Assembly: GCA_023078555.1 (NCBI GenBank)
Contig: CM041196.1
Span: 1,488,001-1,552,000 of the forward strand
Length of the DNA: 64,000 nucleotides
Direction: 5' to 3'
From: Ulva prolifera
Taxonomy: Eukaryota; Chlorophyta; Ulvophyceae; Ulvales; Ulvaceae
Shown: piece after piece, positions 1 to 22,587 of the stretch
Position numbering within the stretch: position 1 is the first letter of the stretch
Layout of the letters: the number at the start of each line of letters is the position of its first letter
The notes under the pieces: model-generated
Seen by the model: the letters and a program-made list of their open reading frames with translations, nothing else
What the model was told of the DNA's origin: nothing
Database searches by the model: none
Translations under genes and position numbers: made by a program

Positions 1-3000
1 CCTCCTGCTGCATCGTCGCGATACAGAGCTTGTGCACGGGGTCGTCGTGCAGCGCGCAGCCTGGCGGGCTGTGCTCGCAGATCTGTGACGACGATGACGG
101 CCCGACACCGAGCCCAGACGACAGCGGCGATAGTGGGAGCAACGCCGGGGTTGCCGTCGGGGCGTCGCTCGCCGCGATTGTGGTTGTCGGGGCGCTTGTG
201 GCCGTGGGGGTGTGGTGGTTCTGCTGCCGGAAGAAGGGCGGCGGGGAAGCGGGCGAGCCGGGGAAGGTCATGGTGCGCTCCGATCATGCATGCATGCATG
301 CCGGCTGTGTACATACACGGCGCTTGAAGGTGAGCGTGTACCTGTGATGCGTGCCGTTCCTGCTGTTCCTGCTGCTCCTGCGGTGCTACCGGCCTCTGCG
401 ACTTTGCCCGGTCAGTACCCAACGCCTGGCTGCATCTGTGTTACAATTACAAAGAGGGAGAGGCAGGTACCACCGCCGGGGCACAGCACAGCACAGCACA
501 GCACAGCACAGCACAAGCACCCCCGTTGACGGATGGGGCGCTAGCCTGCCTGCCTGCACCTGTGTGACTCAGCAGCCTGCTTCCTGCTGAAAAACCCACT
601 CTCGCCTGCCCTCGCAGATACAGAATCAGCCAGCTCCAGTCGCCCCGGCCATGCAGACGTACCAGCAGCCCGTACAAACGTACCAGCAGCCGTACACGCA
701 GCCTCCGCAGCAGCAGTACGTCTACAGCCACACGACCCCCGGCCAGCCCCAGGCTGCCGCCCCCCCGCCACCTGCCCCGTACCACACTGCCCCGGCACAA
801 GCCCAGTACGCGCAGCCCCCAGCACAGCACGCACAGCACGCGCAGCACGCGCAGTACGCGCAGCCGCCGCCTCCGCAGTACGCGTACTCTGCCGCCGCGC
901 CGGGGCAGCCGAGCACGGGGCAACAGACCGCGTCGTACGCCGGGTCTCAAGTCGGCACCGTCGCCGCGCGCTCCACCGCGTCGGCGACTGAGTCCTCCAT
1001 GCCGCCTGCTGCGCACGGCACCGGCACCAGCACCGCACACACGGCGACGAACGACAGCCAGGCAGCGGTCAACCCGTACGCGCTGGTCGCGACGCAGGGG
1101 GAGACGTTCGGGCAGACGACGTTCGGGCAGACGACGGTGACGCAGCGGCGGCCGCCGCCGGCGGGCGCGAAGATCGACGAGCGGAAGGATTTCCTGCACT
1201 ACCAGCTGGACACGCTGGCCGGGAGCGAGGTGCTTGCGGGGCTCGTGATGGAAGCGGGGTTGTCGAACCGCATGCAGGGCGGTGCGCCTCCCGCCGCGCC
1301 GGCAGCTGTCACTGTCTTCACACTGCCAGGTTCATGCTCGTGCAAGGCTGCTGCCAATCACTACTGTCAGACGTTTCCCTGTGCTCTTCGCGGGCATGCA
1401 TACCGGATCGTGTCCAGTCCGTTATCTTGTGGTGGGGCAGTGATGGTGTGCTCAGACCCTTTGCCATCTGAAGCTAGATCAGTAGATCTCTGACGTACAT
1501 TTGGAATAGCCAACTCGCATCCAACGAAGGCACCGCGATGGCTAGCGTCAGGTGGCCTTGCGGCGTTTGTAGGGCTGCCATCCAGCCCTTGGACATAGTC
1601 ATTCGGAATCATTCTACGCGACTGCAGCCATGCGCCGGAAGACTTGACACGGAACTCGCACCCTGCAGGCCAAGCCGTCATCCAGTTTGCGAAGGACCGC
1701 CGCTCCGGCCTCTTCTACGCGCTCAAGTTCTTCCTCTCCAATACCGCCTTCACCGACGAGGTGGCGCTGTACACCGACCGCGGCAGCCCCCTCGGCCACT
1801 TCCTGCCGCAGCTGCGCAACATCGTCGGCGCCGTCGGCCACGGCGCGCCGATCGCCGACGCCTACGGGCAGCCGCTGCCGCCGTGCATCGTGATGGAGAA
1901 GGGCGAGAGCCTGGACGTGTGGATGAAGCGCAACCGCGACGGCATGGACATGGTCACTGGCCTGCAGGTGCGCAACACGTGGTCCCCATCGTCCGGAGTG
2001 CTGCAGACACGGGTTGTCAATTAGTCGTCAAGCTCCGATGAGGACATGGCCATGTACATGCGAACTGCTGGCATTGCGGAACTTGACATATTCGTGAAAG
2101 GGTCTAGCAGCGCTGACTTCGCATGTCTCAGCCAGCCCTCCCGTCACAGCCGTGTTCGCTTTTGTTAAACATATGGAGCTGCATAGTGGATGGTTCGCAC
2201 CTGGCCGTATGTTAAAAAAAACAAGGGAAGTTCATGCAGACACCCGCTGATTCTCTGCCCTGCGCGCCCAGCAGGTGCATGGCGTGACGGGGTGGGTCGC
2301 ACGCTACAGCCACAAGGTGTCACATGCATGGTGCAGGTGATCCAGCACGTGGCGGAGCGGCTGTCGGACCTGCACCAGGCAGGGTACGTGCACCGCGACC
2401 TCAAGCAGTCCAACGTCATGTGGCTGCCGCGCGAGAACCGCTGGACGCTGATCGACTTTGGCTGCGCCGCGCGCATCGGCGAGGCCGCGCCGCTGAGCTT
2501 CAGCCTGACGTACGCCCCCCCGGAGGTCATCCAGGGTGTGCGTGCCGGCCGCCGCACCATCACGGCCGACACCGCGATGGACGCGTGGACTCTCGGCATC
2601 GTCGCGTTTGAGCTCTTCACCAACAGCCCGACATTCGACCGGCTTGAGCCCAAGGACCAGGTGTGTGCTGGGCCGCATCGCCACGGAGTCTTGGCGGCCT
2701 CTCGTTGCGTAAGCAGCAGATTGTCATGCATGCATTGCCAGAAGTGAAGCCACAGTTGGCGGCGCGAGTCCCAATAGTGTCTAGACTGTGATGTGCCACA
2801 CATGTATTATCTTTCTTGGCTTAACAGATCTGCATTGTACATGTCTCATACGCCATGATCAGCACAGCTTGCACTGACATGTGCCTGCGTCCGAATCGGG
2901 GGCTCCTGAATGAACTCATTGGTAGCCGGTGTCTCTGCTCTTCCATGCAAATGGCCCTGCCATTGTCTACATGATCAGGTCCTGTGATTGTCCCGAGGCC

Positions 3001-3276
3001 CTGCAACTGTCCACACGATCATCACAGGTCCGTGTTGAAGCCTCGCAGAATTTCAACAACGAAAAGCGGCCTGTGCAGGTGATGTCGAGGATCGTGGGGG
3101 AGCAGCCGCTGCCGTGGGAGGCGGCGGCGCCGGGCAGCGGGGAGCTGCTGAAGAAGCTCGGCCGCTTCAAGCCTGGCATCCTCGGCCTGCTGCAGCGGGA
3201 CCCCCAGCAGCGCCTCACCCTCTCCGCGTTCGTCAGCCGCTGCCGCAGCGTGCTCGAGCAGACGGTTGCGGCCTAG
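1..3276 (+). CDS. Membrane-anchored receptor-like protein kinase, 5'-partial (kinase A)
   Basis: The gene runs in from the left edge. Proposed exons: <1-272 (frame starts at base 3), 618-1281, 1669-1967, 2337-2660 and 3079-3276 (stop TAG); all phases agree. Exon 1 encodes a Cys-containing extracellular end, an acidic Asp/Ser/Pro spacer, one hydrophobic span rich in Val/Ala/Gly and a basic CCRKK stop-transfer. Exon 2 is a Gln/Pro/Ala-rich cytosolic linker with AQH repeats, ending in a juxta-kinase motif (FLHYQLDTL...LVMEAG). Exons 3-5 are the kinase: beta-3 Lys in ALKFF, helix-C Glu in TDEVALY, HRDLKQSN catalytic loop, IDFG, APPE and DAWTLG. All key catalytic residues are present, so it should be active. 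Kinase C (29734-37033, minus strand) has the same exon phases plus a beta-helix-like ectodomain; A probably has one too, outside the window. Substrate unknown. Confidence 0.85.
437..476 (+). repeat. Dispersed TGTGTTACAAGGACA-type motif, copy in intron 1 of kinase A
   Basis: Diverged copy of a motif of about 42 nt found at least ten times in the window. It starts TGTGTTACA and ends GGCAGGTACCACCGC. It lies in the first visible intron of kinase A in the sense orientation. Confidence 0.5.
481..517. repeat. GCACA pentanucleotide microsatellite
   Basis: About seven tandem GCACA units in intron 1 of kinase A, directly after the dispersed motif copy. Confidence 0.9.
1968..2130 (+). other. Intron segment conserved with kinase C
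   Basis: The first 160 or so bases of kinase A intron 3, beginning at the donor GTGCGCAACACG, align almost without gaps to the matching intron of kinase C (about 31720-31914, minus strand). Intron conservation at this level points to recent duplication or gene conversion. Confidence 0.75.
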
Positions 3277-4470: not shown

Positions 4471-7111
4471 ATGGAGGTGGCAGCATCCGAAGTCGGCAGC
4501 GTGCTGCAAGGGGTCATCGCTAAGGCATATGAGGTATATAAGCTCTATCGCGACCGCGGTGGTAGCCTACAAGCTTTTGCCAGGTGCGGAGTGCTACAGC
4601 TGCCGATGGACTTCGCAATCACACGAGCCGACCGGTGGCGTCGTGCCGAGCTAAGATCGTGTTCCGACTCGAATCATCTGGTTGAGAAAAGCGGCACTGC
4701 TTCGTGGGGGAATCGTGATTACCTTGGCCATTGGATATGCTGTTCGGTATCGCGTGCCACTTCCTACGTAGATCTAGATGAGCTCGTGCCAGCAGTCGCC
4801 CGCTGTAAATGATGTTGTTTCGCGGTCGAGCCCATTATGAATATGTACACGGTTAATGAGCGCTTCATATGGCACGTCAGGATCGTCCGTCGCAGGAAGG
4901 CCTCAAGCTGGGGAGCAATTCTGGCACAGCAGAGCGCGTTCAGCGAATGGTTCAGTTTCGCAGGCATGGGATGCTCATTGATGTATGCTTTCACCATTTG
5001 GGCCACGAGGGTAATCATGCAGTCGAGATAGCTTCCCAGACCGCTTCTGCAGTATATGGTCGCTTTGTTTGTGGAACCTGGTCTGGTGAGTCTGGTGCAG
5101 TACTAGTGGTTGGACCTCAAACGCACGGAGTGCAGCAGGTTCCGCGCCGGCAGGAAGCCGTTCAACAGTCAAGTGCCATGCTGAGACAGATCACACTGAT
5201 GATCACTCCATTGTGTAGCTGCACGTGAGGGCTGTCAACTCACTTGCACAAAGACCACTTGCACGAAGTCAGGGGGTCATGCACTCCCGCTTTGAAGTGG
5301 TCCCGGTGAGGGCGCGCGAAATCGACGACGATTTTGATCGACTGGGGAACATTTTAAGTATAATTTAGATTAAATGAACAGAATGGCTGATTAATCTCGG
5401 AGGTTTGGGGAGGATCGCCCGAAGTCGCCGATTTGGGCTGTTCCCGTGGGGAGTACCCCCAAATCCGCGTTTTGTTCCCCAAACCTCGAAATTCTTCCCC
5501 AACCGTCCCCAAACTCGTTATATGATGCTTTTATTGATGTTTTACTGGCATATAGCCTTCCTTGGTGTTATTTTGCGTCTCTGTGTGCCCTTTTCCAAAC
5601 TCAGTGTCAAAGCGTCGTCAGCATACCTTCATTTGATGTCTGTTGACACTGGGACTCTGAAAACACCTATTGTGCGGAACTGTGTTTGTGTTGACAATTC
5701 TGGGATGTGATTTCCCCATGGCGAGGTGCAGCTGGTCAGCCTACCAGTAGCCTACCCAACATGATTCTGTGGACTCACGCGTAATGCACGTCCGGGTGTT
5801 GAGATAGCTCTTGCAGCTACCGTGTTTGTTATTCACGGCCATTGCCCCTGTAGTTTGGTTTGATCAGAGCTGTCCATCGTATGCTGTGGTGTTGCGCGAT
5901 GCCAGCTGTTCAATCATTATAACGTCCCCCGCTGAAACACGTCGGGCCTCGCAGATGAATTCTCGAAACCACAGTTGCGTGTAGCTACGACATTCACCTC
6001 GTTTCGCTCCTCGACTGGTTGCGCCACCACTGTATTAACGACTCCCACGACTCGACTCCCTGCAATTCCAAGGCCGACACAAGCTCCACCTACTATATAG
6101 GCACCGGATACGTCTTGCACACCATCGTATAGTATCTGTTGCCCATTGCGTGGACACGAAGCCATGTCATTGCAGTGCGTCGACGCGTCGAGGTCTGCTC
6201 AGCTGTCACGACGACCACATCACTCACAGAAGTCGCAACAGTGCAGATATCGCCAATGTACAATGTCATAGTGACTTTTCTGTGTTGTCACTGCATTGTT
6301 ATCAATGGCGTGCGTTTGGGCGGGAAAAGCTCAGCGAATGCCGACGTTTGGGGAGAACCGCCATTATTCGCCAAAACAGGGGCCTGGGATGGGGAGAGTC
6401 CCCACAGCCGAGATCGCTCAGTACGAGTCCCCAAACATTGATCATCATACTGGAAGTTGTCCCCAATTATGAAAATTCGGCCGTTTTGATGCGCGCCCAC
6501 ACGGGACCACTTCGTAACGGGAGTGCATGACCCCCTACGAAGTCAAGCCATGCACTCTAGATCTTCAGCTGTACCTGTTGCGCCATAGGTAGCTCTACCT
6601 GCACACCATGGTTGGTTCATCGGGCCTGATCACATCAAAAAATTACGAATATTCACATTCAATTTCGTGGCGACAGCCCTGGAAATGCTGCAAAGCGACC
6701 CAACACTGCTGCACACAGTCTGCTGCGTGCTCAACAGGAATATAGGTGTCCTGGAACAAATGTCACACATGCTTGTATGTGCGTGCGCTGCTTTGGTAAG
6801 CATGGACCTCCAAACAAGTACATGAGCAGTGTTACACTTGGCTGCCATCCTTCAATGTTCCTTTGGCACGCATCGGGGTAGCTCTGCACTCTGTCTTCAA
6901 CCTGACCGCTGACGCTTTGAAGCCTGCAAGCCTGCACAGGTACATTCACCATGTCGCGCGCGTCTTACAGAGCATCGAAGGTGATGTTCCGCAGCTCGGG
7001 CTGCCTGTAGTGCAAGACTTGGCTGCCCTGGTGGGCGCAGCTCTGGAGAAGCATGCCAAGTACTCCGGCCGTGGCGTGCTCTCCGTGTTTCTACACCTGC
7101 ACAGCGAAACG
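4471..7111 (+). CDS. 5' exons of MLKL-like kinase B: N-terminal helical bundle
   Basis: Two exons, 4471-4583 and 6940 to about 7111. ATG 4471 has a good context (AAC before, G after). Exon 1 encodes an amphipathic helix (GSVLQGVIAKAYEVYKLYRD) and ends in a split codon AG at donor GTGCGG. Exon 2 starts with G after CCTGCACAG, so the phase closes to Arg and the frame continues YIHHVARVLQSIEGDV, then a third helix (VQDLAALVGAALEKHAKYSG). The helix spacing and the KYSGRG..SVFL end resemble the MLKL/HeLo-type N-terminal four-helix bundle, which in known families drives membrane disruption or oligomer signalling. The exact end of exon 2 (7111 assumes donor GTGTGC) and the link to the exon at 18375 are inferred; a fourth helix was not found. 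The 2.36 kb intron carries two transposon insertions. Confidence 0.5.
5271..6536. mobile_element. Non-autonomous TIR DNA transposon, 1266 bp
   Basis: Imperfect terminal inverted repeats of about 45-50 bp: the left end begins AGGGGGTCATGCACTCCCG and the right end is its complement, CGGGAGTGCATGACCCCCT. An exact 8-bp target duplication ACGAAGTC flanks it (5263-5270 and 6537-6544; a ninth base, A, follows the right copy). The inner flanks are rich in TTTGGGGA/CCCCAAA motifs in both orientations. No transposase frame is visible. The 8-bp duplication suggests hAT-like or related chemistry. It sits in the first intron of kinase B. Confidence 0.88.
6607..6708 (+). mobile_element. hAT-type MITE, copy 1 (102 bp)
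   Basis: Flanked by the exact 8-bp duplication CTGCACAC (6599-6606 and 6709-6716). The right end GCGACCCAACACTG matches copies at 25745 and 48339; the left inverted repeat is mutated to CATGGTTGGTTC. It lies in the same kinase B intron as the 5271-6536 element. Confidence 0.85.
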
Positions 7112-7302
7112 GTGTGCTCGCAACATCGTCAACACACGATGTATGAGATGTATCCCTGCGACGTTCAACAAGTCGCGAACCAGTGGGGTCGCAGCGTGTG
7201 GGACGGCAGAGGAGATTGCTCATGTGACCATACCATGCACAGCGTCTCACCCGAACTTTGGCGACGCGTTTGGATGTGCACCATCGATGCCAACAGCAGC
7301 AC

Positions 7303-7347
7303 TGTGTTACAAGGACAAAGGCAGCAAGGCGGCGGCAGCAGCACTGT
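7303..7347 (+). repeat. Dispersed TGTGTTACAAGGACA-type motif, copy at 7303
   Basis: Good match to the family: TGTGTTACAAGGACAAAG followed by GCAGCAAGGCGG. Just downstream of kinase B exon 2, sense to that gene. Confidence 0.7.
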
Positions 7348-7805
7348 GTATGTTCCAGCATGGCAAGAGCCAGTAAACATGGCACAGGGAAAATGCCAGA
7401 GTGGCCTACCCTGGTGCGCCACTCACGTGGGTGCACCGGTAGAGGGTGTGCTATTGTGTAAGTCATTGGGCTTTGCGTGTTTTGTCATGCAACAGGTGCC
7501 TACATGTTGCACAACTGCCAAGAATTGCTTCTGGAATTTCTCATGGTTATTCCTAGCCCCAAACAGGCCATTCTGGTTGTGGTGGCCCAAACAGGTTCAC
7601 CTTACGGGTGCACCAATTAACTGGGTGCACCAGGTATTGGTGAGTCTGTTTTGTACGTTGTCCAAAACGAGTGATCCGGCAAGACCAGTCGTTTGGAAAC
7701 ACCTCATTATGCCCTCGTTTACTATGCATCACGTGTCCAAGGTCACATACCTGCAAAGAACTTTGTGGGCCCGGGTTGTGGCACACCTTATGAGCGCACC
7801 TAGAT

Positions 7806-7824
7806 GGTGCACCCATGGGTACGC
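7806..7824. repeat. Palindrome-centred repeat, left copy
   Basis: GGTGCACCCATGGGTACGC, containing the perfect palindrome ACCCATGGGT. Its partner is at 18347-18365; being near-palindromic, the pair can be read as direct or inverted repeats. Confidence 0.6.
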
Positions 7825-8451
7825 TGTCTTTGGAACACCACCATGGACAATGTAGTTACATATGCTCATGCAACTCAAAGTAATTCGATGATGGCCTTGG
7901 AGCCCATCGAAGTCGCATTGCCTTGCATAGAGATGTCTGTTTGCAGCGTAGGCCAGCTAAAAAAATTACCGCGCCTGACTATACTGCTTGCATATTACAT
8001 GCAGACCCCCAATCCACAATCAGTATGTTGACATGTATTGGTGTACATATCCATGTGTTGTTCGCGCGTCGTGTCATGTTTACTCCACGGATGCAGCATG
8101 TCTCTGCCAGTACGACCCATCCATGCACGTTCACGCTCACATCGTCAACTTTCATTTTGGTGGAAGGCAGAGAGCTGCATTGATAGAGTGAATGGAAACG
8201 TGGCATGTTCTGCGGTGTAGTGCCATCGTACGGTGGCTTTGAGTGCATTTGAATAGTCGCGTGTTCTCTGCGTATGTGTTTGGTGCTCGAGCTGCGCCCG
8301 CAGCAGGTGGATGCACCGGCTACATCAAGCAGCTGCCTTGTGTATCCTCTTCCAGAACTGAAATTGCCTATGAACAATGTTTGGCGCCATCGCGGCGGCC
8401 GCTTGTGTGCTGAGCTTCGGCTTGCATTCGGGTTTCAGTGTCTCTGTCCAG

Positions 8452-11400
8452 ATGCCTAAACGATCTGTTGAAGTCAGAGATTCATTTATTCAGCTCGCAA
8501 ATGGTCAGTGGTGGTGTAAGAAGTGCGGTGGTAAGCCGTTCTCTTCGGGTGATAATCTGGCACGCCATTTGGACACGGACGTTCACATTGATAATGAGCT
8601 GAAGATTCGGAACAATGAAGCTGAGTGTCATATCCCACCCATCGTCCGTCCGCGGGTGTTGGAATCTTCTGACAGTGAGGATGATATCAGAGAGGATGCT
8701 GAAGCCCGCCATTGCTCATCTCCGTCTCTACATGTTCCACCACCAAGCCCTTCGCGAATTAGCCCAGCATGTGACTCTCATGCAGAGGACGGCGATCCCG
8801 TTGAGTCACCATCGGTGCTTCGGAAACCGCCAGATGATTTGGTGCGGGCCGTGGAGGCCAGTACTGGAATTCCCTTCGGAGCGATACCAGAGGAGGACCA
8901 CCAACCTGAGAATCCGGCAATCAATGCGTCAGATGAACATGCAAAATCGTTCACAGACTTTGATTGGGGATATGAAGTGCTGGTGTGTCCACCATATGTG
9001 CAAGGGATTGAAACGAGCTGCCCAACATATTATCCTTGAGTGCTATAGTTACCCATGCTGCAGGGACTACATGACATGTTGACATTTGTAGAAGATGAAG
9101 GCCGCCTGCGTGGGGGTGTTGTTCCAGATGCATCCGCTCTTGTTCGGAGTGCATTGCAACAAGGCTTCATGATGGACAACAGCATATCACTCGCTAGTCT
9201 ATCAGCCGAGCTAGCCGACAAGATGGCACAGATGAAAGCCAATTGTCAGAATGTGGACGCGCCTCCGCCTCGTGCTAAGACAATTCGGTGGTACCAAGAC
9301 AATTTGAACGAGCCAATTGCAGATAAGAGCACAGTCACAGTGCTACAAGCATCTTACTGTCTTGCATGGTTGAAATTGAAAGGTGGTATGACGACGCAAG
9401 CGCTGAATTATTTGTGCCGTATGCTTGCCTCGGGCGGCTTTGTTCAAGGCAGCAACAATATCATGCCTCGGTACGCCTTCGTGCTCATCCACCTACACTG
9501 CGTGTATGTACTTGTGTATATGCGTGTGTGCTTTGAGTAGCTTCGACTCACATTTCGTTGAGCATCGATGAAGTGCAGGTCTGAATACTTGGTGAGGGGT
9601 ATCTTGTGCATGCAAGGCCCCCATGATTACGCGTTTGATTTGTGTGACAACGGCCAGTGTCCTCATATGTACGGGAAGCAAGTGAAGATGAAACAAAGGT
9701 TACTCCGTCCTGGTGAGCGCTGCCCAATCTGTGGGAATCATCGGTATCATATGAGGAATCGACAGATTCATCCCGTGCGAAGGCATGTTCCCGCATGTGC
9801 AGTGTCTGTGAACAGATAGGTGTTTGCGCAGCAGGCGTTTAACAAGTGCTCTGCGAATGCAGTGCATACGTGTTGAAGTTGGAGGATGCTATCAATCATT
9901 TGTTCGGCGAGCCAATGTTTGCTAGATTCGCAGGGACTCGCAGCCTGAGCATGATGGACTCACCGTTGTATGAGCGTCTAGATAGGGCTCATGGCGGCGC
10001 TTTGACAGCCTTGTCGTCTTCACATGGCAGTGTGACTGTAGATGCAGCAACATCAAACGTGCGTGAAGACGTGGACGAGGTAGGCGGTCCATCGCACCAC
10101 ACTCAGTTGCCTGCTCATAGTGATGTTGCAGAAGATGACAATGTGACGCCAGATCCAACCGACGAGATCATGACAGGAGACAATGACACCATTGCCTTGT
10201 TCTTTGCGTTGTTTGTAGACGGTGTTCAATTGCATGATCATGGCCGGGCCACCACAACTGTGGTGGGGCTGAAATGTCTGGATCTACCGGGATTCATGTG
10301 CAATTCTGATCTCTCGTGTTTTCCACTGGCATACATCGGGGGGAAGAAAGAGCCCACTAACCTCAGCCAATTCATGACGCTGCTGCTACAACAGTTCAAG
10401 GACCACGAAGCATTCGGGTGTAGAGACGAGCAAGGTGAGAATCGTGATTGATATGTATGCACTGAATTGAGCGTGAACATGTATTGTCTGTGACAACTGC
10501 ACAGATGTGTGACAATTTCGAAGGTATGTAGTTGCAGCATGTTTGTTGCCCTGACTTTTGCACCCGGGCACCTTCGTGCAAGACATGTGCAGGCTCCATC
10601 AAGATCACAGGGAAGCCGATCAGGGTTTGGGATAGCTTTCGAAAACGATTCCGCCACGTCTTCCCCATTCTCGTGTTTGCGTTTGCTGACACACCGGCCA
10701 GGCGCTCATGGGCTTTGACCATTGGACATACAGGTTGTAGTGGTTGTGACAAGTGTGGTATCAGAGGCGTAAAATTTACATCAGACGGCATCGCGTTGAG
10801 TTCGACATCATTTCTTGGATACATCTCCAAGTGCCCTGTGGTGTTGTTGAATTCATCCAAGGTAACCCCTATCATAGTCTGTGTGGTGCAGGCCCGGGTG
10901 GCTGGCGTCGTGATATTCCCTGCCCGATGTGAGTAGTCTGGTGCATGTGCAGAAATGGGTGGCTGAAGAGATGCGGTTTGGATCGAAAGGCGAGCCTGAT
11001 CTCGCGGCTCTACGACGTGTGCTTGTGACTGATGACATGCATCGGCTCCGCAGCCAATCGGCCGAGTTGGAGTCCGATGCTGCATTGGTGAAGCATCCCC
11101 TTCCAGCTGCAGCACAACGTGGCGGCGCCTTCACTGCCAATCCAAACTCAAAGGAACAGATTCTTTTAACAAGAGGTGATCCTACACCTATTTCGTATGC
11201 ACTTGGCTGCTCCCGTGCATATACACTGAACAAACAACATGCCCGAGCGACCAGTCTAGACTGCAGCCATGGTCAGATCTCCCACAGTGATACACCTTGT
11301 GATATCCTTGTGATACACCTCTAAGATTACTCGCAGACGTTGCATTGTGCTCACTATCAATACCTTAGATGCTATGCTTATTTTGCTGGCATGATTTAAC

Positions 11401-13601
11401 TGCCCATTGCCTGCAGACTGCGCTACAGTCTGGAAGGCTCGCCACCGCGCTTTCAATGAGGAACACATTGGACTCGGATCGCGTGGAGTAAATCCCTTTC
11501 AGGCATCTGGGCTTCGCAGTTATGAGTGCGTTCGATCCTGGATGTCCACAACCACTGCTGACGCAGTGCCTTCACTGGTATGTTGGTGTCTTCTAAATCC
11601 CGTTGCCACTATGCATGCAGCTTCCAATCTACATTTGTTGATCCTTTGTCGCATTCCATCTTATATGGACTACTGCGGGGGTTCATGGCATTCATCTGCA
11701 GCACGGGGACCCCACTGAAAGTGAACGGGCAAAAGTTCCATCTGCCACAGAGTTTGCAGCGCAAGATGAGCATGCTCATGTCTATGATCGAGTACCCAAG
11801 CGCATACAACCGACGCCCCCCTACGCTATGGTGCGTTACTCGCGACATGGCAAGTGTTAATTTTAACGTCCCGTTGTGGACGTAATGACAAGTCCGAATA
11901 TTCGCACTTCTCTTGCAACCAACACACTTCCCTCACTACCAACACACTGTGCTGCTGCTGTAGCGAAGTCTCCGTCTCCAAGTGGATGTTCGAGGAATGC
12001 AACACGTTCCTTGAGATCGCTGGAGCCATGGTTTTCTACCACTTCCGTGAGGAGATCCATCCTGGCATCTTGAAGATGTGGGGTCATCTGCGGAAGTATG
12101 CGTTGTATTTCCTGCACTACCGACCGGGACAGCATACCATAGACCAGATTCGAGCAGCACAGCGAGAGATCTTCCAGTTTGCAGAGTATGCTGAGAAGAA
12201 CCTTGAGTCATCCTTGCTGACAATGTTGGTACACAGGTGCTTTGCCCATATTCCTACGCAGGTGGAGGCATCACTTCCAGGGGCTTTCATGCGCGAGGAC
12301 TTTGGTGAGCGCATGGTGCGCTGGACCAAACGTTTCATTAAAGGTCACGCAACGCTCAGGGCGGCAGAATCTTCTGCCGCCGTGTGCCTTACCCAGATGA
12401 GCCTACGGATACACCTGAACGAGAATCCAGGTGTTGATGATCCATTGAACAACATTAGAGAGAATCCACCTGTTCGGCCTGTGGACAAAGGGGATGACTA
12501 CGGAACTGCACTGCACCATCTGGCCCCTGCGCATACCGGTGAAGACCGAGACGAGGTCTGTCCACGTCATGATCATTGTTATACTGCTGCCATTGCCCCC
12601 ATGATGATGGATATGGACATGTGAGTGTGCATACGTTCACGATAGTTGGGCCACATGTGGGCCATTTTTGACTTGACTTCAACCATCCCGTACACGATAT
12701 CGTAGGAACCAAATTTTAATTTTTCTCAACAAATAGCTCGATAGGGAGGATGTTTGGGCTATGGCATGGTCCGGCGTTTGCATCGTACCTGTGGTACGAT
12801 AGGGCATCAGACAGCTTGTGCCAAATCAGGTTCAATATTCAAGTTGAATGCCAAACGAATGATTGTGGCTGAATGTGATTGAATCATACCTTGTTGCAGA
12901 TGACAAAATTCGTGGAAGCTCTAGACAACATGAATGACGCAAGGCAGGCTCACAGGGTCAGCGGTGAGTTGGCCATTGCTGGTGTTCTCACCAGGACAAA
13001 GATGAAAGGGACATTTGATGGCACCACTGGAGAAACAGTGTACGACAACAATGAGAAGCCCGAAGTCTTCAGCTCAGACACGGCTACCATTCAGTCCGGG
13101 GCTTGGGTGGTGCGGACTGAGGCAGGTTGCCTATCTCACAAACGGCAGAAGACAGACAAGTACGTGTACATCCCGTTTAGGGCTGCAAGGGGAATCAACC
13201 ATTGTGTCATGAAGATAGACCAGCTACTGCTGGTTCGCGTGAAGGGAATGTCATGGCGAGGTGAAGAGGCAAGGATTGCCGTAGGCACCTTGTGGGACCG
13301 CCTCGCCATCAGGGAAGGGGCAGGTTTAGAGGTCACTTACAATGATGACCCAACCCGTGGCGCTTGTTGTGTTCCCAGGGTATTGTACTTGAGTGCTGCA
13401 AAGAAAGCTAAAGGTCGGCGGATTGCAGTTTATTTGAGGCAGGTCCACTGTCCATGTGCATTCTACCCCGGGCCACCAGGCGAGACTTTCATTACCGTGA
13501 GTAAAATGGGCTTTCATGGGCGTAGAGATTTGCTAGTGACTGGCTCCGATGTGCGAGATGGAGATAGCGATGATGAGGATGATGCAACTGAGGTTGAATA
13601 A
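8452..13601 (+). CDS. CACTA-like (Tnp2 / transposase family 21) transposase, multi-exon
   Basis: Proposed exons: 8452-8976, 9064-9470, 9579-9774, about 9860-10434, 10593-10861, 10953-11175, 11417-11577, about 11610-11830, 11964-12555 and 12900-13601. Most junction phases agree; the starts near 9860 and 11610 are unresolved. The start may instead be ATG 8377. The N-terminus has a C2H2-like finger (CKKC ... HLDTDVH). CPICGNHRYH is a second CxxC site. DDE-type landmarks follow: LFVDGVQLHDHG (first Asp) and FADTPARRSWALTIGHTGCS followed by CDKC (second Asp plus the Cys insertion typical of Tnp2). Then VDPLSHSILYGLLRGFM matches the family VDxMHxxLxG motif. A long helical region (LLTMLVHRCFAHIPTQ) and an acidic C-terminus end the protein. 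By family it cuts and pastes the element in the nucleus. No frameshift is required by the model, so it may be intact. Confidence 0.72.
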
Positions 13602-13882
13602 ATTGATTTAGTAGATCTGTGTACCTCGGCTTGTACGATACGACACTGCAGTCAGCTAGCACATCTGAAACACTAATTGTGATTCCATTCGCCAACGAGC
13701 CTGAATAGACAAACATTTACAGCCATCCGTGTTTACTCCTACGCTGCACATATGGAAGTCATATTCACAGTTGTACAACATATGTTGCGAGATACCTCTC
13801 ACCCACAGCGGCACACCCCTTTGCTCTCGTTACACTATTGAGTGACCCACGTGGATGGGTGAGTGCAGCTGGGAGGTGTGTC

Positions 13883-13958
13883 GGAAAATGTCATTAAATA
13901 AGAGCAGTGATTGATTGAATCCGGACAGTTGCATATTTTTCGGCCACTGGAGTGACAG
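13883..13958 (+). repeat. 76-bp direct repeat, copy 1
   Basis: Starts GGAAAATGTCATTAAATAAG and ends CACTGGAGTGACAG. Nearly identical to 14034-14109, 151 bp downstream, in the space between the two transposon genes. Confidence 0.95.
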
Positions 13959-14033
13959 AGCCAGCTCCAACAGGCCTTGCAGGTCAGCCAAAAGAAATGT
14001 AGCGGTCCGGGTAATGGAAGCTTGATTACTGGC

Positions 14034-14109
14034 GGAAAATGTCGTTAAATAAGAGCAGTGATTGATTGAATCCGGACAGTTGCATATTTTTCGGCCACTG
14101 GAGTGACAG
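14034..14109 (+). repeat. 76-bp direct repeat, copy 2
   Basis: Second copy, differing by A to G at the eleventh base. It precedes the second transposon gene by about 150 bp and may be part of its promoter or a transposase-binding array (inference). Confidence 0.95.
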
Positions 14110-14265
14110 CGACCAGCTTCATGGACCCTGTGGCTACGAGGGTGTCGATCCGCACACGGCAGCGCTCTTTCGAATCCGGGACATGATCACAATGCCCTAT
14201 TGATGAAACATGCAAGTCAAGATGAGCTGCGTCATTATTAGACCTTTCTCGTGTAGCCCAGCAAG

Positions 14266-16914
14266 ATGGCCGAGCCACAACTACCAATCAAAGTCACCAA
14301 GCTGACCCACCTCAATGTCGTCATTGGGGACCATACAATCACACTATCTCTTGCGAAACTCAGCAGTGTGTCAACGGAGCAACACCTCAAAAACGTGTTC
14401 GCCGATCTTAGCAGGAAAGTGGGCAAGGTGACGCCGCTAGAACACCACACTGTACTTGGTCACAACGGTTTAGTCGACGAAACTCTGCTTCAAATATTTA
14501 CCGAGACGTACGGGGTGAAATACGAGAATGACGACTTCTGGCAAGGTCCGTGGCGCAACACGACTGGCTCCATTGAGCTTGTAGACCCCGACCTCGTGGC
14601 TAAACCAACGTCGAAGGCAGTGGGGGCACAGAAGAAGAAAGGAAGGCGAGCCTCGAAAGCGTCTAAACAGGCATGATCCAGCTAATACTACGCATTCTGT
14701 GTGCCTCGAGGATCGTGCAGGTGGTCGGTCAAGCGATTCAATCGTTGTTACTCTGTCAGCTCGTCTCGAGAAGCACTATTGCAATGACCATGGTCTGCCC
14801 GGCTTATGTTCGGAAGGTGCATGTCGTGTACAGGCGGAAGTCAATTTGTTGCAAGAGATGGAAATGTATATGCCATACATTACTGCCGAAGCGTTCAAAC
14901 ATTTGGTGCATCGTCTTCCGACATTATTGGTGATGGATAAACCATCCATGCTGCTAGGATCGATTCTATCCAGAGATGTCAAAGGTCCTCTCACGGATGT
15001 TGATGCTTGGCGACCCGATGATCCGGTGCGCACCTACGGGCTACAGTCACAGCGGCGTACCTGCCGTGTAGCTCTAAATTCCCGCTTGCGCCGCTCGAAC
15101 GTGTCCCCATTTTGCGCAGGACAACGTTGGACTGTTGCAACTCAGAGCAGGTCACGAAATCCAACTGGAGATGGCCGAGATCATCAGGATCATAAATGCA
15201 TATGTCAGAGCAGCATGCCGAAGGCAAGACAAGTTATCTCTCGCTGGAGAGATCAGGAATAATTTGCGTTTGATGAAGAAGAGCATTGACGCAGACAATG
15301 CCAGGAAAGTCCGGCCAACTGTGTATTTGTTTTTCTTGTCGTGGGCACAACGCAAGGAGGCAGATGGTGAGCTGGATCACCTGCTGGCGGGCAAGCCGTG
15401 GCAGTTTGAGCCAGATGATCGAGCACCCGTCTTATCACGGTTGAAAAAGCTTTTCGCATTCCTGAAAGGTGATGGCTTGGCCGAAAATGCGAAGGCCTTT
15501 CGAAAGACTGTGAAAGACAATCTCCTCAGCATGGCTCGTTCGGCCAAGTATAAGAAAGTGGGGTTCCATGATCTTTTGTTCATCTAAAACAATGGCGAGA
15601 GGAATGTCCGCATGATACGCATAACCACATGCAACTAGCAATTGTCACTCAAGTCTTAATTGCAGGGACTGAGGGCTCTCTTGATTGAGTTTGCATCGGA
15701 AAAGGCTCAATGTGAATCACTTCCTGCACTCCAAGTCTTCCGGCCAACATGCCTCTTGCCTACGGATGCTGTTCCAAGTCCAGGTGATCAGATTGATTTG
15801 ATTCCCGAAGCCTGGTGTGAGGATTGGGGCACTGCTACCAGCCCAACCGAGACAGCCCCCTACGGTCGCCTCACTGAGGAACTTACACCTCCACAGCCAA
15901 AGAACCAGACAGACCGGCAGCTACGAACTGATGAGAAGGAGTTGACAATGGCTGCATTATTCACACCTGTGGGAGGGAACAGATTTAGAGGGTTCCAAAC
16001 GTTCCGCGATGTCTTTGACTTTGGACTCTGGGCAGTCGCAGTTCCGCCAGTCATTGCAGTGGATGAGCTTGACCCGACTCAACCAGCAAATATTCCCATC
16101 AGGCCCCCTCGCAAAGGCTACTATTATGTCGTTGGAGCACTGATGCTGGACTGCATTCGGTGCTATGTGGTATGCCACTGTTGCTCCAATCCATTGAGAT
16201 TTGCCATAGACCAATGATGAAGGTGTTGTGCATCCAATATGTTGTGTGAACCGTTGGCAAAACAAACATTGATGCAGGAAGTGAAGTTTGCTGCCGCCGG
16301 AATGGATCCCCCATTTGAACTGATTGAGTATTGTCAGCAAATACAGAGTATTGTACCAACGCAGCAGCCGAGCCACGAAGTGTCATCTGATGTCAAGTTC
16401 AGTGAAGTGGACCTCGAATCCAACGACGAAGACTGTATGGAAAGTGATTGTGGAAGTGATGATGATGAGGAGGAGGAAGAGGTGACGTTGGCACAGCGCA
16501 CAGTCAAGCAGTCAGCCTCCAATCGACCTCAACGCCACGCAAGTCACAGAAGAAAGAGGGTCCTCGAGGACCTTGACACCGATGAGGAGACCACAGATGA
16601 CGATATGCCAGCCTCCACAATCCCAATGAACAAGACAGAAAATTCAGGTGGTGCTGGTAAACGCCGCAATACAGAACCCCTAGCTGACAAAACGAACAAG
16701 ATGGTGTGTTCCCACTTATTCCCACATGTAGCGGTGTGGTACCTGCTTCGTGTGTCAACACCTGTTTAGCCCGACCATCGATTTGCAGGACTCCCGTGCA
16801 AACATCAAGCTTCAAAAAGCTTCAACATCAAAAGCGACGGGCAAGAAGAATACGAAGTCACAAAGAAAGCCGACAGGAAGTCAGGGGAAGAGCACCCGCA
16901 GAGTGGCGCGCTAA
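14266..16914 (+). CDS. Second gene of the CACTA-like element, unknown function
   Basis: Six exons can be joined in phase: 14266-14545, 14721-15025, 15120-15557, 15666-16169, 16278-16703 and 16789-16914 (stop TAA), giving 692 residues. Alternatively the first exon reads on to a TGA at 14676 as a separate 136-residue protein with a basic KKKGRRASKASK end. The rest contains a Cys/His cluster (HYCND, LCSEGAC), helical segments (IIRIINAYVRAACRRQ; LFFLSWAQRKEADGELDHLL), a hydrophobic-aromatic block (FDFGLWAVAVPPVIAVDE), a strongly acidic tract (GSDDDEEEEE) and a very basic tail of about 40 residues. I do not recognise the family. By position it may play the part of a TnpA-like accessory or DNA-binding protein. 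Confidence 0.55.
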
Positions 16915-18374
16915 ATATGAACCGATTCATAAATGTGCGAGTCTTACCTGTGCTAAGCCATCTGATCAGATACCGCCTGTTGACTTCGATTGATAATCAT
17001 GTCCTCCACGGAGACCCGGGTTGCCTGAATGCAATGTGAATGCAGCTGGGTGGATTCGAGGTGACCAGAAGCGCAAGTCAAGGCTGCTGATCAAGCTGCA
17101 ACCGATGGGCTGATTCCTACATTTTCCTGATCTGGCTTAATTTCATTATAGACGGCTGTGTTGGCTGTGTGCGGTGAGGGATCGTGTGTTGCATGTTACA
17201 GTGGTGCAATGGCGCGCATAGGATGTGGCCAGAATGATTATAGAAATACATAGGAGTGTACCATATCACCAAACACCATGCAATGATGCTATATACGCAT
17301 TTACACCGTTGTTCGCAGTGCTTTTGTATTGGCGTACCTTTGTGGAGCACCCACGACGGACTGGCGCATGCGTTGCGGCTCGCCCTCGAGGCGCGCCGTG
17401 TACAAGGGCGTGCACCGTTTATGGCAGGTGCGCCACACGAGGTGCGCGCTTCCGCACAAGTCCACATGGCTGCTGTAACAAGCGGATATGGCTCCCTTGA
17501 AGTCAGGAAGGATACCTGGGGGTCTTCTGCGGCACGAACGTGGTGCGCAGCGCTTGAAAGTTGACGGTAGCAATCGCTCAAAGTGCACACAGATACAGTG
17601 TTTCTGTCTACACGCTCCTCATCGAATTGAGAGATACCATACCATTAATTCTGGCGCTTACCACACATTACTGACGTTCAAGCTATACCGTATGCTCTTG
17701 CGTGGGTGGCCGTCTGCTGCACTATACATGCTCCGGGCACCCCCAGACATGCGTGAGACACCGATCAGGCACCGCAAGTGGCGCTGTACCGCCTTTCATA
17801 TGACAAAAATGAAACCAGGCATGTCTCCTGGGTGAACGCACGTCTTCCTGGCATTAGCTCAAGGGTAGTTCGGCCAGCACATCGCCTTGACACACAGCCA
17901 ATGAGCACATCCGCTGTCCTTTTATTTACCCCAGGCAGAAAAACTAATTCGATAGGGATACATAACGCAATATTGGACTGGTTACATGCCATTGCGGGAT
18001 CACCTCCGCTTCGGGAAAGACACTCTGTGTTCGAAGCGTGACATGCAGTACCCGTCCAGATGATCTATTATACCTCCACATGTACCAAGCACGCTTACAT
18101 CACGCTTATAACTACATTTAAAGTCTCTCACTGCAAATTGTTAATCATTTTCCAGCTTTACAGGCGGATACACTACAATTTCCTACACAGACACGTCATA
18201 CTCGAGTCGATGTCGGAGACTGCATGGTGCACCAATCAGCGTCGGAATGGTACCGTAGTGTTCACAATAAACATATCTATCACTATCTAAGCCCAAATCC
18301 ACCGAAGCAGCCAACACGAAGATCTCTCTCAACGGCGCACCCGAACGGCGCACCCATGGGTACGCCTGTTCGGC
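16915..18374. other. Right flank of the CACTA-like element
   Basis: No convincing exon. GGTGCGCC and GGTGCACC-like motifs recur (about 17410, 17431, 17448, 17541, 18227 and 18347). An in-frame TAA at 18288 limits how far the next kinase B exon can extend upstream. Confidence 0.4.
18347..18365. repeat. Palindrome-centred repeat, right copy
   Basis: GGCGCACCCATGGGTACGC, matching 7806-7824 with one difference. It lies 10 bases before the first ATG of the kinase B coiled-coil exon. Confidence 0.6.
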
Positions 18375-21300
18375 ATGATGCCTGTGGGATCCGCTCGCGT
18401 GCAGGAGAGGATGCAGGCCATCATGCAAGGTGTGCAGCAGCTTCTGCCGCTGCTCACCGTCTTTGTCGCCTCCTCTGCCAACGTCTCCGCCGCCGTCGCC
18501 GACCTCCAGCGGCGCGCGGTCTCCATGCAGGGTGTCTCCGCGGAGGCCGCTGCGCACCTACGCCACCTGAAAGACGCCGTGGAGGCCCTGCGCTCAAGCG
18601 CTGCGGGCAAACAAGACGTGCAGAAGTGCTTGGCCGCCCTGCATGACAGCACACAGCAGCTGCATGAGGAGGGTGTCCCGTGGGTTCAGGTCCTGGACAG
18701 CTGCTCGGCGTTGCAGGACAACCTCAGCCGAGGAGTCGCCAGGCTGACGCAGTCACTGAACGAGCTGCAGGGTGAGGTGGCCTCGTTCTCACGGCTGATG
18801 GCGTCTGCGCAGCAGGAGCTGACTCATCTGACTGCCACCATGAAAGAGGTGAAGGAGATCCTGCGACAGCAGCATGCGCTCTTCTGCAGCGTAACGCAAA
18901 GTGCAGCCACCAACCTGAAGCAGACGGGTGGCATTCAGCCGGCGGGGGTGCGGTCCAGGTGACACAATTGTGGGTTAGTACGCCAGTGCACGCAGATGAT
19001 ACGGTGGTCTCCTGCTGCCTATATATGGTCGTACACCAAGTAGGTCGGTGGACAGCAAATTTGTCTAATCGCCTGCAAGACCCGAGTCAGATCTAGACTG
19101 TCCGTGACGGCATCCGAGTGAATGCCGACGGTTTCTGGTCGCTCTGTGTGCAAGTGATATCGTTGACATCGGTTCCAGAATCATGACGTGACTCCCCCAC
19201 ACCCCACACTGTTCCTACCCCCGCCCTTACGTATGTACGACTATTACCTACCGTCTGTACCTACTAGGTACAGACGGTACAGCCTGGGGACAACATGGTG
19301 CAGCCCCGAGCCGCAGTAAATGGCCTAAATGGCCGCGACATGCTATCAGCCACATGTAGGCGCCAACACGCAGATGTAATTATAAGTGCAGGACATAGGG
19401 CAGCGCCCGCCTCAAGGCTTGCCAGTGCCCGATGAACAGCCGCACGCTGCGGGGTCCAATCAGATCTCGACCATCGCATGCGATGCCACCGTTCTCAGCC
19501 CGCCTCAAGTGAAGCAGCCTGAGGGTGATCCTGTGGCCCACAGTCAAACCCCCTCCTCTTCGCGCAGCAGGGTGACCGCAACGTACACAAAGCTTCGGAA
19601 AGCGATGCACTGGCCTGCTCGGAAGTTGCGGCAGGAACGATCTGGGCATACCCAGTTGCCTCCGCCGAATGGGCGACCACTCAGCGCCCTCCCAGGCACA
19701 GCCACCCCATTGAGTACAGACCCCCCGAACCCTCCGAGCTCCGCAGGGGCGACCGATGGGCAAATCTCTGCGCCTGCCAGTGAAGCCTTGACGCATGTGG
19801 GATCCAGTGCGTCGATTGCGCCGACGGTATCCTCATGTGCGACCGGCGCCACGCTGCCCGGATCCCCACCTGCCGAAGGCGCCGCGCTAGACGACGTCGA
19901 CAGAACAGAGTATCTGCACCGCCAGCTGGACGCCATGGTGAATGTACACAAGCAGGATTTCGCTGGCACGTTGCTGGGTGGCCTGATGCTGGAACCCGGC
20001 ATGATAAATCGGAGGCAGGGAGGTATGTGTCTGTTGGGGCACTAGTTCATGCCATACAGCATCCATTCGAGAGGGTCGCCACAGAATTCTGTGACGACCC
20101 ACTGGTCAGTTTCTGTCTGTGTGTGCCACCAGTGCCCGGCCATGGCGGCACCACTGTCGCAGAGTGCACAGGTATCGAATTTGTGAGGCTCTATATTGCT
20201 ATATGTAGCTACAACGCCGCTGCCAGCAAGTAGCAAAAAGAAAAAAGATACCACAATCATCGGCCCGAGGCCACAGCTTTCATTGCCAGTGCCCGTGGGC
20301 GCCATGGTGCGCAGGGGCTGCAGCCAGCGCCAGAAGATTTGATACGCACAGTGTCGTGAGCTTGCGGCATTGAAGTCAACAATCAAGTCAACGATTTCAC
20401 TGCAGTGCACATGCACATGATGGCGCTTTGAGTGAGATGACGCCCCACCAACTCATGGTACATCCGCCATGATTGATCGTGTGTTGCCTAGCTGTCTGAC
20501 AGCAGTGTGTGGCAGTACAGGGGAGGCAATTGTTCATTTCGCCAGGAATCTCCACACCGGCGAGCTGTGCGCCATCAAGTTTTTCCTGTCGGAGGCTGCG
20601 TTTCACAGAGAGGTGTCCCTGTACCAGGACGGGCCGCTGCGGCGGTTTCTGCCAAAGCTGTTCAACATCTGCGGTCCCGATGGGGACTACGGCGTGGGCA
20701 ACCAGTCCCCGACGCTGGTGGACCCAAATCGAAATCGCCTGCCGCCGTGTATTGTCGTTCAAAAAGGGGATCCCCTGGGCGATCTCGTCGGTCGACACAT
20801 GCCCGGCCTGGATCTGCTCGATAGCCTGCAAGTGCGCATCGAACGTCCGGCTGATGAGTGCTTTGTATCTTCTCAGCGCATTGTGTTACATGGACGAAAC
20901 CAGAGAGGCAGGTAGCACCGGTGTCGCAGGGCACAAACACACCCGCGCACCCACCAGCACGCAGTATCGACCAGCACACCTGTGCCGCAACACACGCCAT
21001 GGTGGCCAGCACCCACCCCCGCCAACAGCCATACTGTGAAAGAACACAGCTGCTGTACATGTGAGTGTCTCCCTCTAGAGTGCTCACAGATTCATGCAGC
21101 CTGTGTTCAACTCCAATAGACAAGATTACAAAGGTCTACACTAAGTGGAAGTATACCTGTGAAAGAACACAGCTGCTGTGAGTGCCTCCCTCTAGAGTGC
21201 TCACAGATTCATGCAGCCTGCATTTAACGTGCTGAGTTATACCAACTCAGCAGACTATGTGTCCACAAGCACAAACTAACGACACAACCATGCATGTCAG

Positions 21301-22587
21301 CTGGAGGACACCATACCTGTGTTTAACTCCAATAGACAACTTGAAGATGTCCTACTGAAGTCAACACAAGGCTTATATACATTCAAGCACACAGACACAT
21401 AAGCTCTGCCTACGTGCAGAACAACAAACGCTCCCGCTATGAATCCCTCCATCTCTGAGATCGCATATGCATCGAGCACGTGTACAGCAACCCTGCGTAC
21501 AACCCCCCTCTTGATATGCTAGCTTCTAGCTCCCTCATAGCAGTCTCGTATTGAGCCATGCTTATGATTCTCCTGACATTCATGGTTTCACAACACACTG
21601 TCCAGCATTATCGTTCTCATGCATGTACCAGCTTCACACTGTACTGCAACACATACACAAATAGGCGCCATGTGACAACAGCATGATGCGCACCATGGCA
21701 TACGCGTACCTGCTGCACTGTTTCCCTTTGGACCCTCGCAGTGTGCATCAGCTTGCCACCATGCGGATGGTGCAGGTCCTTCTACATGTTGCTGAGAGGC
21801 TGTCAGACATCCACGGCGCGTGCTATGTGCACCGCGACGTCAAGCCAAGCAATGTTGTCTGGCTACGGCACGAGCGCCGGTGGACACTGATTGACTTTGG
21901 CTGCGCAGCGCGCACTGGCGAAGCTGCACCAATGGCCTTTACCTTGAAGTACGCAGCTCCAGAAGTGGTCCGCGCATTTCGCAACGGCGATCGCACCATC
22001 ACGGCCGACACTGCAACAGACGCGTGGTCTCTCGGCATTCTGGGAATTGAGCTGATTGCGCACAAAGAAGTTCAAGAGGAGGTCCTCCAGGATTACAACG
22101 AGGTGTGCATCTCAGAGATGCAGTGCCATGCTTATTCTGTGCGCCCTGATCGTACTACGAGTGCACCTGGACCTGTCAGTCATTCTTGGCTCTAGAGATC
22201 TCCAGGTCAGTGAGCCTGCCAGCATCTGGCATGGATGAGCAGTTCTCGTCTAACTTCACCACATGCTTCACATCACAATCAAACGCATCTCGGTTGAAAC
22301 AACCACAAATTTCATGAAAATGGTGCACAGATTGATCAATTGTTCCCTTTCAACGGCAGAGCTTGACTTTGGTCTGCACACCGACGTCCTCTGTGGCGCA
22401 GTTCATGTCCAAGATTCTAGGCGACTCGCCAATGATATGGGAGGAGGGAGCAGAGGGTAGCGGGGAGCTGCTACAAAAGCTTGGCCGCTTCCGGCCCGCC
22501 GTCCTGGGGCTGCTGGAGCGCGACCCGCAGCAGCGGCTGGGCGTGACTGCGTTCATCGATAGCTTCCGTGCCGTGCTCCACAGCTAG
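18375..22587 (+). CDS. MLKL-like kinase B: coiled-coil/brace, disordered linker and protein kinase domain
   Basis: Exons: 18375-18949 (donor GTGCGG), 19392-20022, 20521-20831, 21776-22102 and 22402-22587; phases 0,1,0,0 close correctly. The first exon encodes about 190 helical residues with no membrane span, ending ATMKEVKEILRQQ, which resembles the brace of MLKL proteins just before their kinase domain. The next exon is a Ser/Pro/Ala-rich linker ending in YLHRQLDAM...GGLMLEPG, the juxta-kinase motif shared with A and C. The kinase has AIKFFLS (beta-3 Lys), HREVSLY (helix-C Glu), HRDVKPSN, IDFG, AAPE and DAWSLG; all catalytic residues are present, unlike many pseudokinase MLKLs. The intron after 20831 carries the dispersed motif and a tandem duplication. 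ATG 18375 could be an internal Met if the exons at 4471-7111 are spliced in. An alternative is two genes: a helical protein ending at 18962 and a kinase whose start is unseen. Confidence 0.75.
20882..20920 (+). repeat. Dispersed TGTGTTACAAGGACA-type motif, copy in kinase B intron
   Basis: TGTGTTACATGGACG start and GGCAGGTAGCACCG end; sense to kinase B, 50 bases after the exon that ends at 20831. Confidence 0.7.
21035..21226 (+). repeat. Tandem duplication, period about 122 bp
   Basis: CTGTGAAAGAACACAGCTGC plus the following CTCTAGAGTGCTCACAG block occurs at 21035 and again at 21157. A further partial relative (AACTCCAATAGACAA) occurs at 21110 and 21326. All lie within the kinase B intron 20832-21775. 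Confidence 0.85.

Follow-up and report, generated by a model that had tools for sequence, protein, structure and literature searches.

MLKL proteins join a helical bundle through a long helical connector to a C-terminal kinase fold; its first brace helix is described as retaining the four-helix bundle up to the onset of necroptosis (PMC8433767), and oligomers of phosphorylated MLKL form at the plasma membrane (PMC10197012). In the green lineage, a plant MLKL family is conserved across seed plants (PMC9950082), and this family and wheat Pm13 combine MLKL_NTD, brace and STK, that is, an N-terminal helical domain, a helical connector and a kinase-type C-terminus (PMC10951266, PMC9950082). An N-terminal bundle also precedes a regulatory module in helper NLRs with an RPW8/CC-R domain and in fungal HeLo, HeLo-like and SesA proteins (PMC12881547, PMC10197012). 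Among immune modules of green algae, NB-LRR genes have been reported (PMC7145615) and little beyond them is known to us. Here, we analyse a 64,000-nucleotide stretch of the genome of the green alga Ulva prolifera (C1:1488001-1552000, hereafter the window), in which a locus at 4471-22587 encodes a helical bundle, a long coil and a kinase with intact catalytic motifs, probably as a single chimeric gene. Overall, this locus is real and unusual.

As predicted, the candidate would share with MLKL the order of bundle, long helical connector and C-terminal kinase fold, in a model of 760 residues in which neither a signal peptide nor a transmembrane segment was seen (the best 19-residue hydropathy is 1.78, against 2.69 in the transmembrane segment of a neighbouring receptor). 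It differs in that its kinase keeps Lys, HRD and DFG, in its 181-residue coil exon and long low-complexity linker, and in a bundle without significant sequence kinship to that of MLKL. Likewise, the resemblance to the plant MLKL family and Pm13 extends to the green lineage and to the three-part layout, whereas the candidate comes from an alga, belongs to a family that natively has a U-box-like insert, and carries a receptor-type kinase, its MLKL_NTD membership being unproven. Unlike the RPW8/CC-R and HeLo/SesA systems, it contains no NB-ARC domain detectable with Pfam in any part of the model, and its family makes contact with SesA through a single sub-threshold match. Finally, it has its linker motif, its kinase exons and the phases of its introns in common with neighbouring algal receptor kinases, in which a signal peptide, an ectodomain and a transmembrane segment stand where the candidate has bundle and coil. 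A literature search turned up no MLKL-type kinase in a green alga, a result that does not amount to a claim of absence because subscription papers were mostly outside its reach, and the same search found neither the layout of the family described below nor the exchange of its kinase.

The gene model

Seven exons (Table 1) make up the model: all six joins are in phase, the 760 codons are free of stops up to the end at 22587, and GC content by codon position is of the coding type. The first two exons were placed correctly to the base in the preliminary description of the locus, which was made from sequence alone; they splice in phase at GT and AG into MEVAASEVGSVLQGVIAKAYEVYKLYRDRGGSLQAFAR/YIHHVARVLQ...LHLHSET (slashes mark splice junctions), the position and phase of the exon A donor match those of five compared paralogues, and the pairing of these exons with a coil recurs at about 25 other loci with the same splice positions. 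The coil exon needed revision. Its supposed extent, 18375-18949, begins inside a transposon, the right end of which is formed by 18375-18386 (ATGATGCCTGTG); homology places the start at 18405 and the donor at 18947/18948, both splice sites being in line with the bundle-coil family. Single-sequence structure prediction makes exon C nearly all helix (mean predicted local distance difference test, pLDDT, 70.6) and exon B three helices (mean pLDDT 62.7). Structure comparison with Foldseek yielded only generic helical matches for the predicted fold of exon C, none of them at E 0.001, and no structural match at this threshold was obtained for that of exon B. The order of helices, coil and kinase first described is present in the sequence, and what had been called a brace is a predicted long helix.

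In the kinase half, the catalytic Lys (CAIKFF), HRD (YVHRDVKPSN), DFG (IDFGCA) and APE (YAAPE) motifs are all present, the Pfam Pkinase profile matches at E 1.9e-17, and the kinship with neighbouring receptors that had been proposed is borne out by 67% and 61% identity to the kinases of two of them over the HRD-DFG exon. The linker motif matches these neighbours at 1179-1283 (+) and 32759-32655 (-), so that linker and kinase exons together are of the neighbouring receptor-kinase type, and exon G resembles, by eye, the last exon of the neighbour that ends at 3276. In comparison with the Protein Data Bank (PDB), the best matches of the kinase were CDC7, TAO3 and Aurora kinases, and MLKL was absent from the best 60 of 630.

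Intron B-C houses an 11.0-kb transposon that the preliminary description overlooked. A copy at C5:9.522-9.533 Mb is 97.7-99% identical and has matching termini (CACAGG...) with an AA duplication, and two coding pieces of the element have at least 99 and at least 57 matches in the genome. At about 1-2% divergence from the C5 copy, the insertion is young. Without it the intron measures 287 bp, within the family range of 117-928 bp. We take the termini and 2-bp duplications to fit EnSpm/CACTA elements, which is the sole basis of that label; a Pfam scan of those pieces of the transposon that were tried named no family. A 31-bp direct repeat (84%; 7794-7824 and 18335-18365) lies toward both ends of the element and possibly represents its subterminal repeats. 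Intron A-B contains inverted repeats of about 47 bp at 5271-5317 and 6491-6536, 89% alike, which perhaps delimit a second insertion of about 1.27 kb resembling a miniature inverted-repeat transposable element or a foldback element.

Table 1. Exons and other features of the locus, in window coordinates
Feature	Position	Strand	Description
Exon A	4471..4583	+	start codon, helix 1, residues 1-37; GT donor GTGCGG
Exon B	6940..7111	+	helices 2-3 and link, residues 38-95; acceptor AG/G, donor ACG/GTGTG
DNA transposon, EnSpm/CACTA-like	7383..18386	+	11,004 bp; termini CACAGGGAAAATGCC / CACAGGCATCATGCC (reverse complement); 2-bp duplication GG
Exon C	18405..18947	+	helix 4 and long coil, residues 96-276; acceptor GTGCAG/GAG, phase-0 donor GGG/GTGCGG
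Intron C-D	18948..19391	+	444 bp, proposed fusion intron; TGTAA at 19375
Exon D	19392..20022	+	low-complexity linker and start of kinase N-lobe, residues 277-486; linker motif common to receptor kinases
Exon E	20521..20831	+	kinase N-lobe with catalytic Lys and helix-C Glu, residues 487-590
Exon F	21776..22102	+	HRD, DFG and APE, residues 591-699; Pfam Pkinase E 2.7e-17
Exon G	22402..22587	+	end of kinase C-lobe and stop

The bundle-coil family

The front half of the gene belongs to a family with many members in this genome (88.9 Mb in 44 contigs, to which all genome-wide searches apply). A search with the 95 residues of exons A and B found relatives of the second exon at 23 further places (E <0.02, 37-53% identical), one more at C9:255210 (E 3.9) that was borne out by a later search with paralogues, and several weak matches to the first exon. 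With the coil as query, 26 further loci were recovered at E 3.1e-14 or better, plus three at chance level. At 25 of the 27 coil loci, the window included, the second exon precedes the coil on the same strand by no more than 12 kb, the gap being 117-928 bp at 24 loci and 11,264 bp in the window; at the remaining two (C4:6444368 and C1:11401552), searches with paralogues revealed pieces resembling this exon. The exon-2 donor, of the GTGCG or GTGTG type, and the phase-0 coil acceptor NNCAG are kept in all 13 distinct places compared, which represent 21 overlapping records and include several near-identical copies, so that these counts are not independent. Spliced and aligned with six paralogues, the window gene matches them over its first 137 residues at 48-59% identity; with exons A-B-C in this order and conserved splice phases, it is a member of the family. 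Some bundle-coil loci fall into sets of equal score (C9:58-322 kb, C9:1.12-1.15 Mb and C36), as if they were segmental duplicates or, in the case of C36, to some extent a haplotig of the assembly.

Beyond the coil, the family takes a different course from the window gene. Plant U-box proteins with an N-terminal helical domain exist, as do U-box kinases, and all six paralogues read (L039-L044) similarly run from bundle and coil through a U-box-like segment to a kinase. Their segment differs from that of the plant proteins in matching nothing but the Rtf2 RING, and that weakly (sub-threshold, E 0.06-0.19, in three of the four stretches scanned, L039-L042; in L043 and L044 it was assigned by tblastn similarity), and the window gene lacks it. 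Of the 27 coil loci, 25 are followed on their own strand by a U-box-like exon, which begins within 1.4 kb at 23 of them and at 8.8 and 11.2 kb at the others. The two loci without one within 12 kb are the window, where a search for the exon or its remnants gave no match at E 1, and C2:7582003, where no recognisable kinase was seen in the 5.1 kb read past the coil. The paralogue kinases match Pkinase down to E 3e-16 in the four scanned, and the Arg of HRD is missing from all six (HLD or HLS). In addition, VLG replaces DFG in L042 and L044, the former also having Arg in place of the catalytic Lys and HLS instead of HxD, which suggests, from these motifs, a drift toward pseudokinases inside one family. 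A beta-helix-like region, possibly part of the same gene, follows the kinase in L040 (Beta_helix E 0.0028, below the cut-off), in L043 by similarity to L040, and by eye in L039 and L041; L043 is damaged by one stop and one frameshift.

The preliminary description was unaware that the front half has a family of its own, natively equipped with a U-box-like region and a different kinase, and had regarded an MLKL layout on a receptor-family kinase as new. The layout itself is already found in the six paralogues, with the U-box-like segment interposed, so that it is the exchange of the kinase that is special to the window.

One gene or two

On the strength of sequence comparison, we lean toward reading 4471-22587 as one gene, a chimaera that would have been built by exon shuffling at phase-0 introns. 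The first three exons would come from the family of about 27 loci, where the usual continuation is the U-box-like region and kinase, and would have been joined to exons for the linker and kinase taken from the receptor-kinase family of the neighbours, replacing the exons for the receptor's signal peptide, ectodomain and transmembrane segment. The product would be a 760-residue cytosolic protein consisting of bundle, coil, linker and a kinase with its catalytic motifs intact. The transposon in intron B-C arrived recently. The coil donor GGG/GTGCGG at 18948 is in phase 0 and was assigned alike, by eye, in all four paralogues read for it, and a phase-0 acceptor, GTGCAG/G at 19391, opens the linker reading frame. 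In both neighbours a phase-0 intron separates the transmembrane and linker exons (judged by eye and, in the case of the upstream receptor, solely by its translation). The upstream neighbour has a signal peptide, a Cys-rich ectodomain and a transmembrane segment, and its kinase ends at 3276; the downstream one is a beta-helix receptor on the minus strand, from 37.1 to 29.7 kb. Given that coil donor and linker acceptor are both in phase 0, bundle and coil occupy the position of the receptors' signal peptide, ectodomain and transmembrane segment. Upstream of the candidate kinase, on the plus strand between 3.3 and 19.4 kb, no tblastn match to a receptor ectodomain or transmembrane segment was found at E 0.001. 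As claimed early on, a single gene can be modelled in phase, with seven exons, and the transcript joining them is a prediction.

Several observations speak against such a chimaera. An in-frame stop at 18960-18962 lies four codons past the coil donor, and 412 nt after it, 17 bases before exon D, stands TGTAA (19375), the polyadenylation signal of green algae. This motif occurs within 500 nt past the stop in 9 of 12 3' ends of genes resembling those of the light-harvesting complex (LHC), with 17 copies where base composition predicts 8.9; two of the 12 frames ran long past the domain, leaving their stops uncertain. Chlorophyll a/b-binding proteins have 38 exon matches in the genome, which is therefore photosynthetic, and the tails of these proteins resemble, by eye, those of green algae. 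After the kinase stop at 22587, the first TGTAA is 1,874 nt away. Furthermore, blastn searches of intron C-D against the paralogue loci compared and the remainder of the window revealed no similarity to the introns of either parent. With the end of the transposon just 18 bp ahead of the acceptor of exon C, the splicing of B to C may have become inefficient, and a part in death or immunity is drawn from analogy.

The locus could instead be two adjacent genes, an arrangement that we consider rather unlikely: a truncated bundle-coil gene that would read past 18947 to the stop at 18962 and be polyadenylated near 19390, and an orphan gene for a soluble kinase, the remnant of a receptor without its ectodomain, that would start inside exon D. 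The stop and the TGTAA that follows it, together with the frequency of this motif near the stops of LHC-like genes, are what such a pair would predict; C2:7582003 is likewise a coil locus with no U-box and, in the 5.1 kb read past it, no recognisable kinase, and an ectodomain-only relative that lacks a kinase does exist on the opposite strand at 26.6-23.4 kb. However, the phase-0 donor of the family is intact at 18948 and finds a matching GTGCAG/G phase-0 acceptor 444 bp on, and a separate kinase would have to start within a 631-bp exon that has an intron ahead of it in the neighbours. As an argument for two genes the TGTAA proved weak, since it is also present in the homologous intron of paralogues (6 of 13 records, 4 of 11 distinct places, excluding L024, a stretch without U-box). 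We also considered an inversion that would have split one receptor into the ectodomain-only gene and the candidate kinase. Alternatively, the locus might be a dying allele in which the insertion, by removing the branch point and pyrimidine tract ahead of exon C, would have put an end to correct splicing, so that a working protein would be a misreading. The 1-2% divergence of the transposon and its end 18 bp from the acceptor are compatible with this, but all seven exons are open, every splice dinucleotide is kept, the insertion may be specific to the strain, and transposons in introns are often spliced out; we think decay of this kind improbable. To the full account we prefer, in which one shuffled gene has a cytosolic product that works as proposed below, we give an even chance.

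Relationship to MLKL and HeLo proteins

If the helices were homologous to the four-helix bundle of MLKL and the coil to its brace, the gene would be a true executioner of the MLKL/HeLo superfamily in a green-algal branch; we rate this slightly less probable than its opposite. In profile searches, a check that the preliminary description proposed, Pfam MLKL_N is reached below its cut-off of 27 bits by two of the 14 family members (E 0.0086, 16.0 bits; E 0.078, 12.9 bits), both in one register, with KYxxR at profile position 73, VP at 50 and the end at 104, and one member touches SesA at E 0.14. By contrast, the window gene's own bundle sequence has no Pfam match, and searches of the PDB with profiles of 7- and 14-member alignments returned no MLKL chain up to E 10. 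Other Pfam families that are surely unrelated reach similar E values: DUF4349 is touched by as many members as MLKL_N, and a virus family without any relation to it is matched by another bundle-coil member at E 0.0018. Apart from the two MLKL_N touches, scans of bundle and coil with Pfam and NCBIfam gave coil families of a generic kind and isolated matches of single members. Searched against the whole genome, MLKL_N finds three sub-threshold places, none in the bundle-coil family. The best, C1:2442017-2442340 (+), at E 0.087, lies in a 631-residue open frame outside the bundle-coil loci.

Profile-to-profile alignment gives a weak signal. The 14-row family profile aligned with human and mouse MLKL by hhalign scores 20.5 (E 0.01), which none of 100 column shuffles and 3 of 200 shuffles keeping the pattern of hydrophobic, polar and charged residues reach; with the 12 untrimmed rows, two hand-shortened rows being dropped, the score is 22.8. 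Six circularly permuted versions of MLKL were aligned as well; every one falls into the native register, for which reason they are no negative control. Yet the MLKLs taken singly score 12.9 (human) and 17.4 (mouse), whereas myoglobin, the best of eight helical control proteins run forward and reversed, scores 19.9 against the 20.5 of the MLKL pair, a globin pair scores 17.9, and the bundle sequence of the window gene alone gives 9.1. When human MLKL was set against single family members in a register test without gaps, scored with BLOSUM, all scores were negative. The occurrence of VLG for DFG in two of the six paralogue kinases is what a pseudokinase might show. The gene resembles MLKL in layout, and because true kinship with MLKL or HeLo is unproven, we file it under neither.

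Possible function

If the locus is one gene, its product is most likely a soluble protein, multimerised through the coil, in which the kinase regulates the N-terminal helical domain or which recruits bundle-coil relatives. The coil would multimerise the protein or hold the bundle, and phosphorylation by its own kinase or by an upstream receptor kinase would free the bundle to target a membrane or partners with a bundle and coil of the same kind. Phosphorylation of the receptor type would thus be routed into the pathway of the bundle-coil family. Such gating, membrane action and any role in immunity are suggested by analogy with MLKL, and an MLKL-like working is possible.

A broader and quite speculative conjecture, which we hold to be unlikely, is that the family constitutes an NLR-like system of intracellular surveillance that would need neither NB-ARC nor LRR, assembled from HeLo-like bundle, coil, U-box-like segment, kinase or pseudokinase and beta-helix sensor and arranged in young tandem arrays. 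Some of its kinases would be drifting to MLKL-like pseudokinases, and the window gene would be a helper with an exchanged kinase: an active kinase of the receptor type, welded to bundle and coil, would wire surface receptors directly into an MLKL-like executioner.

Should the window gene be transcribed as one unit, it would show directly how an effector-type front end gained a receptor kinase through exon shuffling, and the surrounding family would become a candidate module of cell death or immunity in green algae. This raises the question of whether the algal bundle, once freed from its kinase, is lethal to cells as MLKL is.

Neighbouring genes

On the minus strand at 26624-23439, a related beta-helix ectodomain gene has, over three pieces, 43-50% identity to the receptor that spans 37.1-29.7 kb. 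It ends in a hydrophobic tail followed by a stop, with no kinase after it on this strand, and is perhaps a receptor of the glycosylphosphatidylinositol-anchored type or a decoy, or else the other half of a split receptor. Farther along, at approximately 42970-40240 on the minus strand, open reading frames resemble, by eye, a malate dehydrogenase gene.

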